A DNA stretch of 64,000 nt, taken from the NCBI RefSeq assembly GCF_964204645.1, contig NC_134029.1, positions 23,392,450 to 23,456,449 of the forward strand, written 5' to 3'. The position numbers and the translations under genes were made by a program. Below, in pieces: positions 14,440 through 31,478 of this stretch. How positions within the stretch are numbered: position 1 is the stretch's first letter; each line of letters begins with the position of its first letter. Source of the stretch: Tubulanus polymorphus. Its lineage: Eukaryota; Nemertea; Palaeonemertea; Tubulaniformes; Tubulanidae. The notes under the pieces were generated by a model. It was not told the origin of the DNA. It was given only the letters and a program-made list of their open reading frames with translations, and made no database searches.

Positions 14440-14475
14440 ATGGCTCTATTAAGGAAAGGCAGACAATTTCTTAAG
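14440..14475 (+). CDS. NUDT6: NUDT6 exon 1 (start)
   Basis: The ATG in the context CAAAATGG opens 12 codons, [12 protein letters not shown], ending on a whole codon at a GTGAAT donor. The next exon has no Met before an in-frame upstream stop and also starts in phase 0. That makes this short exon the best source of the initiator. Confidence 0.65.
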
Positions 14476-17400
14476 GTGAATGAACTATTTCGATCTTAAA
14501 ATACACCGAGGGAACCGCATCTATGCCTTTCTACGTGTGTACACTTTGACAGAAACGTGGCTAATGTTGAATGTAGTGACTGCATTTCACGTATATGGGT
14601 TCGAATCCTATAATAACGTTCTTTAATTCCAGTATGTTATTCATGGATTCTTTACGTCTTCTTGTTACCACGGAAGGTCACATTTTACTACATTATCAAT
14701 AGTGAATGATAACTATAATGGAGTGACTGTCAACTGTGATATGCTTCCACAAAGTATTTCAGGAAACAAATTTAAACAGATTTTATCCGGTAAATCTCAT
14801 CAAAATCTCTGGAATTTATTGTAATTCTGCTGTAGTATTCGCCGATAAAAGTAGTTTATACTGCAGTTTTTACCGTTAGATTATTTGACCCATAATTTCA
14901 GATTCACTGGTTGAATGGGAGAGGAAGCACTCAGCCGTTTGGTTGAATATTCCCATTAGTTATTCTAGTCTTATACCTGAAGCTGTTGAATTAGGATTTC
15001 AATTCCATCACGCTGAAGGCAACTCGTGTACTATGACTAGATGGCTCGATAAAACTGCTGAAAGTCAACTTCCTATGTTTGCTTCCCATCAAGTCGGTGT
15101 AGCTGGTAAGAAATTCAATAATCACATCCGTATTCTGATGTAAGATTATTTTTCAGTAATGAATAAAAGTCGCACATTAGTTACTTTGATAATATAAGAT
15201 TTTAGAAGTCCAGCCAAAATGACTCAATATAATTTAGAATCTTATATGAGAAAATCACGATCGAGCGTGTTCATTATTACGGATACGAGGAATTTGTTAT
15301 GATTGAACTTATGATTCTTTGGAAATGTCAATGTTTTTTTGGATGATGTCTGTTTCAGGTTGTGTGTTGAATGATAAAAATGAAGTTTTAGTTGTTCAAG
15401 AGAAAAAAATGAGGGTGAGCTGATCACTTAAAATTCATGAATCATTCCATTGATTATTGCCGCTAATTTTCCACACATTTTTGCTTTGAATTTTAGCTGC
15501 CAATCTGGAAATTCCCTGGTGGTTTGTCCAACCTCGGTGAAGACATAGGTAAAAATGATTAATAATTTTTTCCTTTTCCCGACAAAGAATTCGTTGATAT
15601 TTCGTAAGATAATGAATGAATATTCTTAAAAAATTGATTTTCATGGTTTACATAGAGGTAATTATTAGAATGTGCTGCCACCATTTCACAGTCGTCGGAA
15701 CCGTAGGTGTGGCAAGTGCTTTCTTATTTTCTTTACTTCTGTAAGGACTATAATCGTTATGCTACCGGTTATTCTCTTAAAACAGATTACAGATGGTCTG
15801 ATTTAGGTCTTGACAATTATTTCAATAATGATTTGTGGTTTGTTACTGCACCTTTCTTGTGGTTTCGTACCCTGGATTAAACAATCGCGTATTGAATGAA
15901 GGATATAGTATCGTAATTGTCTTGCGAACGAGAATTATTCCATTTTTATCGTAGTTTTTTTTTCTAACGTCGCAATAATACGAACCACCCACGCTCCCAC
16001 CCGCACAGAATTTAAAGACTGCGACACTCCGCAAATAAAACAATCGGGTATAAAAACTTCTGTGGTTTTTTTTTTCTAAGCGCTTGGAATATGAAACGAT
16101 ATTCGTATTATTTACGAGTTATGATTTCGGTTTTTCGTGTTGAATCCGTGAATACTTTTTTTAAAAGTTTGTTTAGGTAAATGTCAAAAGGCTTTTAGAA
16201 AACAATGATGTGAAAAAATGTCAGGCAACCTGGTTAATTTTCTATATAAACCTATAGTATGCAATGATACTATATGTAAATACCTACCATCCAAACACAT
16301 CAAGTACAGACAGTGACATAGATCCGCGATAGGCTAAACGTCATATTTTAGTGAAAACATGGCAATTATGAGGGTAATTTTTACTGGTAATTAAGGTCAA
16401 CGTAATTAAAGGTGTAACTGGTTGTCTGGAATTTAATTAGCAGTTATTTCGTTCGTATAGTCATCACATTGCTATATGTATATTGTGTTATGATTAAGGG
16501 TTGGGAGGTCTGCTTCATTTTCATGAATTCTAATTCAGATTTTATCGAACTATGCACTACATGACACAATCCTTTTACACGTATGATATTGATATTTTTG
16601 TAGAAATCGTTGACTGTTGAATTGAGAATCATCACTGCATTCGATTTTGTACAGGGTGGCCACTGACTTTGAATATCTGAAAAACTCAGATGCGTTGGAA
16701 GTGCAGTGACTGCAGTGGTAATAATTTACTGAATTATGTTTTTTTCCCTGAATTTTGACGAAATTGAAGTAAATTCGCCGCAGCAACATATATTTCCAAT
16801 GAGGTATTTTTCAGTGTGATTGACTGAAATGAAGACCAATCCTGTTCAATTAATGGTTTTAGTAGCACGTCTATTTCCCTATTCATCTCTATCGTATCTG
16901 ATTCCTATTTTTCATCCACGCGGATTAAACCGCTGGTAATAATAATCGTTATTACCAAAAACCACAAACCGGAAACCATGCGATACCTGCCGATTACTAA
17001 TACCAATTTATGGTTAACACCAAATAGGCTAATTAGTCATTCGTTCATTGATTCATCATCCATTTCCAGTCTTCTCTGCTAGAAGTTTTAAAGACTTGTT
17101 CATCCCTGTAATTTCTACGTCCACCGTTTTGAAAATCAGCCACCCCTGTTGAAAAATCCGCTCGATGTCAATGTTCCCTGTCAATGTTCTATCATGGGTT
17201 GAGGATTAATTTTCAATGTTTTTTGGGGGTGACCCCAAAACCTGGCCAAAAAGTTAGTATTTGGTGTCGACAATGTTTACACTGAAGAACGAATACTCTT
17301 TTATCCGGGCGTATAGGGAACACTGATAACTGATGCTTTCTACTCCGGTTGAGTTATTTTGATGAAGCATGTACTCTTAAAACGAAAGTCCATTTATTGA

Positions 17401-29123: not shown

Positions 29124-31478
29124 CTGAAAAATATAGAATTCAATATTGATATTACTGTAAGTCTCAGAGAGAAATAGACACGTTTTTATCGTCACTCGCG
29201 ATTAGTCTCGGGTATGACAAGTGTTTTTTGGCGAACTTATGACACACGAGTCCCAGATTGCACATCACGTCCAAGAAGGCGTAAATAAACAAATCAGCCG
29301 TTTAGGGATAGGTGACATACATTCAATATAAGGTATAAGGGCCTCTTGGTTCGTAGATATATAAGTTATACAAGTTTTCAAGTGGCGTACGCCAGGCGAT
29401 ACTTGAGATCACTTGTTCTTAATCACATTTCTATATCAAGACACACGACACAGAAATGGTGTCTATATAGGACTGTAGCCCGTCCTACAAATCTCCAGCC
29501 ACCATCCCGAAAAGCGTTCGAAGAACTCGAATTTCTGGCATGACTAAATGTTTGCATCGAAAATTATCAAGATTTCCATCATATTTTGGACTTGGTAAAT
29601 TCTGGTGGCAATTGCTCAGCGATACGCAGTATTTTCACGTAAATCACAGAACATCCATCACAGACATTCAGGGATACTGAAGATCTAACAATAAAACTTT
29701 CCAGGAAAACGCAAGGAGCTTCGAACAACCGAACCCCAATTCATCACTTTTGACTGCACTAAAAGGTATTGCATATATACATGTACCATAAGGGTTTACC
29801 AGACAGACGATGCCTCTACAAACGATCATGACATTGTATGTTTAATCCAAGAGCAATCATTTTGTTGATTGCTCGTGGATGAATACACACTAGATCGACC
29901 GTGACTATTAGAGAGGGTCGAACGACCTTCGAAATTTTTTCAAATCTTAATTTAAGATTTAAAATCTTTTCAACCAACAACCTCCGTTAACACGAACCTG
30001 CGGCTAGACAACGGTTACAAGTTCGAATTCGCTTTGTTTTGACTATAATTTAAGGACCCGAGGGTGCATTAATCTCTGTGTAGACAGGCAATATATATAT
30101 ATATATATATATATATATATATATATATATATATATATATATATATATATATATATATATATATATATATATATATATATATATATATATATATATATAT
30201 ATATATATATATATATATATATATATATATATATATATATATATATATATATATATATATATATATAAATATTCACATAAACTAGTGTGCTTTCATGACA
30301 TATGCACCGCCCTGAGGCACCGCTTTCCGGCCCGACTACAAGGCACAGACGCGCTTGACAAAATGCATATTCATACACATATACATACATGTATATATAT
30401 ATATAATTTACATAAAGGTTATAACTATAGTATGAAGTAGGAGTGTTTTTCTGTTGTCACGAGGACCAGAAGTATCAGCGCAAATGATACATCAATTAAT
30501 TGCTAATTAAACATAATATGATCTCCACACCAAACCGGATATAGCAGGTACCCTGGACCGCGCGTCGGAACTATTATGAAAACCGTACGAACTATCACTA
30601 CTCCCTCCAACTCGATGCGAACCAACGAAATTACATTTTTCCGCAAAAGACGAATCTTAGTAAAGTTGTTTTTTTTAATCTTCTGATATACTTACGTTGC
30701 TATATAGAAGACCTCGTCTATCCATGCATACGTATCTTTTAGTCGCTCTCCCTTGTATCGTAACATATTTCTGCATGACGCCATCTCGGACAGTGTTTTC
30801 GACTCGCAAAATCATCACGGCTACAATTCGAAGAAAAAAAAATTGCGTGCATTTAAAAAATATCAGACGTGAAAATTATAACGTCGTCGTGTATATTAAA
30901 CAACCGTTGATATTGCGAAGCGCCGTTTTGGCCCATTTTTAAAATCATTGAGTGGTATAAGTTGGCCACGTGCCGGGAGTGAGACCGAACACAATGCATT
31001 GACGTTTAAAGCATTCATAATCCAGTAAAAACTAATCAAAAACTCGTTAATTGTTCGTTCATTGAATAATTCGCTTTTCGCGCACCTTTTTCATGGAATG
31101 CACGAACACGAAGCAACACGGTGCATTTTATGAAGTTTTGCGGCGACTACAATAATATCATCGAGAAAAACTTTTCCAAATCCAACTTCATCGGTCGAAA
31201 CATGTTTGATAAATACACAGAATATATATAAACTAAGCTTACTTACCATGCGGTGTTTTCTGTCGAACACCTTTCACTACACCACGATGATCAATCGCCA
31301 GATTAAATCCTCCGATTCCTTTATGAGAATGCAAGTAGAGGGTCATCGGACCTTTACCAACGCGTTTGTTTCGGGTCATTCCTTCTGATAGATTTAATCC
31401 GCTGGATAAAAACAGTAATGTACTGAAAACTATAGAAATAGTGGCGATATGGTTGCCTACAACAGCCACTGAGTTCAT
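28560..31478 (-). CDS. Secreted fibroblast growth factor, complete
   Basis: Exons on the minus strand are 31478-31247, 30820-30696 and 29123-28560; 921 nt, 306 aa. Phases agree, and the two-intron layout matches classic FGF genes. The N-terminus has a hydrophobic stretch ([15 protein letters not shown]) that reads as a signal peptide or anchor. The beta-trefoil core follows: [60 protein letters not shown] and [22 protein letters not shown] aligns with VTDECFF of FGF2, and the basic loops fit heparan-sulfate binding. After the core come about 60 Thr/Ser/Asn-rich residues and a highly basic stretch ([20 protein letters not shown] onwards). The protein is expected to signal through FGF receptors. 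The subfamily is uncertain: convergence with NUDT6 suggests FGF1/2 ancestry, but FGF1 and FGF2 lack signal peptides. Confidence 0.93.
29124..30695. other. FGF intron 2
   Basis: Bounded by the exon 2 donor and exon 3 acceptor on the minus strand. It contains a 177-bp (TA)n array (30091-30267). No other exon is seen. Confidence 0.8.
30091..30267. repeat. (TA)n microsatellite, about 177 bp
   Basis: Pure AT array inside FGF intron 2. Confidence 0.98.
30696..30820 (-). CDS. FGF exon 2: central beta-trefoil
   Basis: This 125-nt exon lies between a TTGTAG acceptor and a GTAAGT donor. It encodes [15 protein letters not shown], then [20 protein letters not shown], then GLLYSN. This is the standard middle FGF exon (usually about 104 nt), here slightly longer. 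Confidence 0.93.
31247..31478 (-). CDS. FGF exon 1: signal peptide and first strands
   Basis: The exon runs from an ATG at 31478 to a GTAAGT donor: 232 nt, one base over. It encodes the hydrophobic leader, the linker [10 protein letters not shown], then [20 protein letters not shown] and QKTPHG. The leader ends near SSGLNLSEG, where cleavage is likely. Confidence 0.87.

Follow-up and report, generated by a model that had tools for sequence, protein, structure and literature searches.

We describe here a fibroblast growth factor (FGF) gene of the nemertean Tubulanus polymorphus that lies between MICU2/3 and NUDT6, in a window (the whole stretch of DNA analysed) of 64,000 nucleotides at positions 23,392,450 to 23,456,449 of contig NC_134029.1. 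The gene order is NUDT6 (+), FGF (-), MICU2/3 (+): NUDT6 and FGF are convergent, with 6,531 bp separating both stops, and FGF and MICU2/3 are divergent, head to head, with 2.3 kb between their start codons (Table 1). We interpret this locus, with a probability of about 0.7, as an invertebrate FGF9/16/20-type gene in conserved head-to-head linkage with MICU2/3, NUDT6 being its convergent downstream neighbour. The initial annotation of the window had reported a plus-strand NUDT6 facing a minus-strand FGF tail to tail, about 6.5 kb from stop to stop, with no gene recognised in between. Exon models, together with Pfam and PDB matches, bear out this arrangement and its spacing, and Pfam found no gene among eight open reading frames (ORFs) of the gap; the MICU2/3 gene (which we take to be the same as EFHA1/2) on the other flank of FGF was absent from that first reading.

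The NUDT6 exon model has AG/GT at all internal boundaries and yields a product of 295 amino acids. A partial draft of 261 amino acids, the first three letters of which were wrong, matched Nudix_hydro (E = 2.1e-22) and NUDIX (E = 1.5e-18) in Pfam, and its top PDB match was human NUDT6 (E = 1e-54), the second being Nudix hydrolase 7 (E = 6.9e-36). The gene thus combines a Nudix_hydro N-domain with a NUDIX domain and is nearest to NUDT6; it would be expected to act as an ordinary Nudix protein gene. The MICU2/3 draft, made from hand-joined exons, scored 140.8 bits against MICU3, 106.6 against MICU2 and 63.9 against MICU1, and is thus nearer to MICU2/MICU3 than to MICU1; with a shorter query, covering the region of exon 2 and nine residues foreign to that exon, the scores were 35.2 bits for MICU2, 30.2 for MICU3 and 13.6 for MICU1. 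The boundaries of its exons 4 and 5 were set by hand on the sequence itself, and no exon beyond the fifth was found up to the window end. The product has a basic N-terminus together with a hydrophobic stretch, features that would be expected of a mitochondrial protein.

The FGF gene belongs to the FGF family by its Pfam match (PF00167, E = 6.6e-22, 78.2 bits against a cut-off of 24). Its product of 306 amino acids comprises a hydrophobic N-terminus, the FGF core and a C-terminal tail that is Thr/Ser-rich and then basic, and is likely to be a secreted FGFR ligand. Two introns, in phase 1 and phase 0, interrupt the core, as in the FGF family, for which we take the vertebrate core intron phases to be 1 and 0. 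In the C-terminal extension (28560-28900, minus strand), the Thr/Ser-rich stretch is followed by some 30 residues rich in Lys/Arg, a possible candidate for heparan-sulphate binding or nuclear targeting.

The subfamily of this FGF is indicated by the gene upstream of it. Tetrapod FGF9 and FGF20 both have EFHA (MICU2/3) and ZDHHC genes on their upstream side (PMC3636272; statements from the literature refer throughout to excerpts of the papers cited), and MICU3 and FGF20 are listed as adjacent in a cattle interval (PMC7601430). The MICU2/3 gene of the window matches this tetrapod neighbourhood, and we therefore read the FGF as FGF9/16/20, not FGF1/2. In human, FGF9-MICU2 and FGF20-MICU3 are presumably head to head as well. 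The FGF-MICU2/3 pair would then date back to an ancestor shared with vertebrates, in which it would persist as FGF9-MICU2 and FGF20-MICU3, and inheritance of the pair would in turn place the FGF in FGF9/16/20. Gene neighbours constitute a marker independent of the FGF sequence, and the FGF9/16/20 subfamily would gain an anchor from an invertebrate in which MICU2/3 and FGF lie head to head; synteny analysis has been described as a help in placing an unresolved annelid FGF (PMC8224027). The pair is probably held together by regulatory elements of the developmental gene lying in or near a broadly used neighbour. The MICU2/3 introns are large (the first is 9.8 kb) and would be candidate sites of such FGF regulatory elements, antisense RNA not being, on this interpretation, the cause of the linkage.

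A number of points weigh against an FGF9/16/20 identity and its deep conservation, some from gene neighbourhoods and others from the FGF sequence itself. The conservation is deduced from one invertebrate window and the vertebrate literature. The cluster is dispersed over different chromosomes in teleosts and split between scaffolds in Latimeria (PMC3636272). No DHHC motif occurs in the window, but this says little about ZDHHC, since MICU2/3 itself extends past the window end. As to sequence, pairwise scores, subfamily profiles and trees (of 21, 18 and 15 rows, the 18-row set being without FGF8/17/18) were indecisive for the FGF subfamily; of the human FGF rows, one stretch of FGF9 was checked against PDB letters. 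Small subfamily profiles gave 55.3 bits for FGF1/2 (a two-row profile), 53.0 for FGF7/10/22 and 49.1 for FGF9/16/20. A PDB search with the FGF returned a synthetic consensus FGF first, then a tie between natural FGF9 (43.4) and FGF7 (43.3), with FGF2 at 39.9; with a trimmed query the synthetic consensus was again first, and FGF7 (44.2) exceeded FGF9 (43.6), with FGF2 at 40.7. The FHF (p = 0.42) and endocrine FGF (p = 0.43) groups were as good a fit as FGF9/16/20 in the 21-row set, and no approximately unbiased (AU) test in any of the three sets rejected FGF1/2.

The tree of 21 rows further joins the FGF, on a branch of 2.16, to FGF8/17/18. The support is weak (71/50) and the join is flagged as long branches meeting; membership of FGF8/17/18 appears very improbable to us, given its low scores (31.7 bits for FGF8 versus 45.2 for FGF16, and 36.1 for the subfamily profile). 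To our knowledge, MICU2/3 adjoins none of FGF8, FGF17 and FGF18 in vertebrates. In the phmmer search against 20 human rows, FGF16 (45.2 bits) was the top match, ahead of FGF9 at 43.2, FGF7 at 42.4 and FGF20 at 42.0, with FGF2 at 37.3. Constraining the FGF to FGF9/16/20 cost 0.85, 0.05 and 0.38 log units in the 21-, 18- and 15-row sets (AU p = 0.42, 0.41 and 0.32), and constraining it to FGF1/2 cost 4.1, 2.9 and 3.6 (AU p = 0.26, 0.085 and 0.068). FGF4/5/6 (p = 0.031) was the sole group below 0.05 among the seven tested in the 21-row set. The trees thus appear to lean to FGF9/16/20 over FGF1/2, rejecting neither, and by themselves decide nothing, in agreement with the published view that the shortness and divergence of FGF sequences prevent invertebrate subfamilies from being connected with vertebrate ones (PMC3420111).

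It might be argued that the FGF is instead an FGF1/2 orthologue, as the initial annotation had proposed, and that a tail-to-tail NUDT6-FGF1/2 pair is ancestral to bilaterians. Order and orientation are those of the vertebrate FGF2/NUDT6 (FGF-AS, GFG) arrangement, which is highly conserved across vertebrates (PMC3899992, PMC2254637); the FGF1/2 profile scored highest, the AU tests leave FGF1/2 standing, and FGF1-type genes have been reported in arthropods (PMC3420111, PMC4244043), and FGF1/2 may therefore have an early origin in protostomes. Against this, the upstream neighbour is that published for FGF9 and FGF20, and the spiralian FGFs so far described outside FGF8/17/18 are FGF9/16/20 (PMC8224027). 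The alignment points the same way: a long loop before WYIAL and HF for LF near the end are common to FGF9/16/20 (and other families), not FGF1/2, and the short loop before a WYVAL-like strand and the LF without His that we took as the FGF1/2 character, an ad hoc one from two human rows and with no published definition, are not found in this FGF. We consider FGF1/2 orthology improbable. By gene neighbourhood, the FGF falls with a family that has no NUDT6 link in vertebrates, an outcome that the initial annotation had named as fatal to its proposal; by tree, it does not do so firmly.

The FGF9/16/20 interpretation leaves the position of NUDT6 to be explained. The FGF of the window carries the neighbour signature of tetrapod FGF9/16/20 on its 5' side (MICU2/3 upstream and divergent) and that of FGF2 on its 3' side (NUDT6 downstream and convergent), and the presence of both signatures around one FGF possibly reflects a still older common locus. 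It suggests that NUDT6, FGF and MICU2/3 once formed an ancestral locus that was divided in vertebrates, NUDT6 staying beside FGF2, and MICU2/3 beside FGF9 and FGF20. One might speculate further that NUDT6 and FGF convergent, with MICU2/3 divergent from FGF, is the ancestral bilaterian order, and that FGF1/2 and FGF9/16/20 are tandem products of one gene there, a tentative proposal to which we give appreciably less than even odds. A tandem duplication would have produced FGF1/2 on the NUDT6 side and FGF9/16/20 on the MICU2/3 side; after the vertebrate genome duplications, FGF2 would have retained NUDT6, FGF9 and FGF20 would have retained MICU2/3, and FGF1 and FGF16 neither, and the invertebrate of the window would still have both sides around one FGF. 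We assume that the human chromosomes of FGF1, FGF2, FGF9 and FGF16 (5q, 4q, 13q and Xq) form one known paralogy group, and that 8p22, with FGF20, has further families in common with 13q and Xq; this paralogy, for which the literature matches listed offered no text to cite, fits such a block. If NUDT6 does belong on the opposite side, the relation between FGF1/2 and FGF9/16/20 would become directly testable, and the FGF2/NUDT6 linkage would seem to predate any antisense regulation.

Alternatively, only the pair of MICU2/3 and FGF9/16/20 would be ancient, and NUDT6 would have arrived independently, whether fortuitously or through a rearrangement in this lineage. Gene deserts, not NUDT6, lie downstream of tetrapod FGF9, FGF16 and FGF20 (PMC3636272), and the link of NUDT6 to this FGF is known from one window and was noticed owing to the fame of the pair. 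The convergent NUDT6-FGF pair is real, and a chance origin of it is unlikely: we put the probability that NUDT6 adjoins some FGF at about 2e-4 (for some 25,000 genes and 2-3 FGFs, an estimate made after the pair had been noticed), and lower if orientation is counted. Taken together with rearrangement, independent arrival of NUDT6 falls somewhat short of an even chance in our judgement. NUDT6 may also be part of the ancestral block inherited with FGF9/16/20 and MICU2/3, of which we are less sure than of the FGF-MICU2/3 pair.

As for antisense regulation, the NUDT6 mRNA and the 3' untranslated region (UTR) of FGF2 share more than 400 nt of complementarity in vertebrates (PMC3899992), and the convergent genes of the window might form a similar working sense-antisense pair by way of long 3' UTRs. 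This is the explanation to which we give the least credence. The stops lie 6.5 kb apart, and the first AATAAA occurs 90 nt past the NUDT6 stop (22118, plus strand) and 48 nt past the FGF stop (28512, minus strand); if these nearest sites are used, about 6.3 kb would remain between the transcripts, and nothing was found in support of the sense-antisense overlap that the initial annotation had raised. A long NUDT6 3' UTR was likewise considered and is unsupported, with an AATAAA so close to the stop. Given 12 AATAAA on the plus and 9 on the minus strand of the gap, sites this close are expected by chance with a frequency of about 15% (NUDT6) and about 6% (FGF), which makes the argument from the nearest sites against overlap suggestive and weak. 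No Pfam family exceeded its cut-off in the eight larger gap ORFs, which were picked by eye with GA-repeat ORFs excluded (three of the eight had sub-threshold matches, E = 0.056-0.089), and an Rfam scan of the window (4,227 families, gathering score) gave no match.

The window was also scanned for a second or relic FGF, using FGF profiles on 2,873 stop-to-stop ORFs of at least 15 amino acids, and none was found beyond the three known exons; the combined profile contains the query, and the four subfamily profiles do not. The best non-gene ORF reached E = 0.53. One gap ORF (25671-25727) was considered as an FGF relic and taken as noise (E = 0.65 with the FGF1/2 profile). A search for FGF relatives in prokaryote genome contigs gave 36 pattern matches, none of them confirmed.

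Beyond NUDT6, upstream and on the same strand, the next gene recognised by eye is a G-protein-coupled receptor (GPCR); the three best PDB matches of its exons (46.5, 39.7 and 29.0 bits) are chains whose names include the gonadotropin-releasing hormone (GnRH) receptor. Long TA dinucleotide arrays (95-100% matches) occur at 6435-6742, 21472-21595, 30091-30272 and 50459-50745, one of them within the last NUDT6 intron and one within the second FGF intron, and a 19-bp tandem array of about 30 copies (45849-46434) lies in a MICU2/3 intron. A dispersed short element, read by eye at 18540-18760, 47360-47465, 49875-49985 and 63852-64000, is bounded by ends similar to CCAGTTCCACAGTT...AACTGTGGAACTGG, contains 'actcagagttaa'-like repeats and resembles a miniature inverted-repeat transposon; its copy at 63852-64000 is a 44-bp tandem array.

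Table 1. Positions of genes, intervals and repeats in the window, counted from its first letter.
Feature	Position	Strand	Remarks
GnRH-receptor-like rhodopsin-family GPCR exons	1210..8880	+	Transmembrane (TM) stretches TM5 and TM7; recognised by eye
NUDT6	14440..22028	+	7 coding exons, 295 aa, stop 22026-22028
NUDT6 exons	14440-14475, 14633-14789, 14902-15105, 15359-15414, 15497-15548, 21357-21404, 21694-22028	+	
NUDT6-FGF gap	22029..28559	none	~6.5 kb stop to stop
GA-rich tandem repeat	23321-23806		Within NUDT6-FGF gap
FGF	28560..31478	-	3 coding exons, 306 aa
FGF exons	31478-31247, 30820-30696, 29123-28560	-	Canonical splice sites
FGF-MICU2/3 divergent interval	31479..33781	none	2.3 kb start codon to start codon
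MICU2/3 (EFHA1/2)	33782..56294	+	First five coding exons located
MICU2/3 exons 1-5	33782-33985, 43754-43883, 47907-48017, 52010-52057, 56212-56294	+	

Among the literature matches listed, which covered few subscription papers, there was no report of NUDT6-FGF or MICU2/3-FGF adjacency in an invertebrate. The synteny of FGF1/2 is described in a figure legend as well conserved between vertebrates and amphioxus (PMC3420111), and amphioxus NUDT6 has been placed on two scaffolds, in a paper where FGF goes unmentioned (PMC7761149). Among spiralians, the transcriptomes of three lophophorates each contain a single FGF9/16/20 and a single FGF8/17/18 (PMC8180254), and a long-branched FGF of Lottia groups with FGF9/16/20 of lophophorates (PMC8224027). 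These FGF9/16/20 genes, which come from brachiopods, a phoronid and Lottia, probably belong to the same subfamily as the window FGF, by its gene neighbourhood; they differ in having been assigned by tree, the word 'synteny' being absent from PMC8180254.

Two vertebrate systems resemble the locus, each on one side of the FGF. The tetrapod FGF9-EFHA1(MICU2)-ZDHHC20 and FGF20-EFHA-ZDHHC blocks have MICU2/3 upstream and divergent as here, if the human orientations are as assumed above. They differ from the window, which has a single MICU2/3 gene, no ZDHHC seen up to its end, and NUDT6 downstream of FGF instead of a gene desert. Vertebrate FGF2/NUDT6 has the same convergent, tail-to-tail order; it differs in that here the stops are 6.5 kb apart with no overlap predicted, MICU2/3 stands on the far side, and the FGF has a hydrophobic N-terminus, a long loop and a basic tail.

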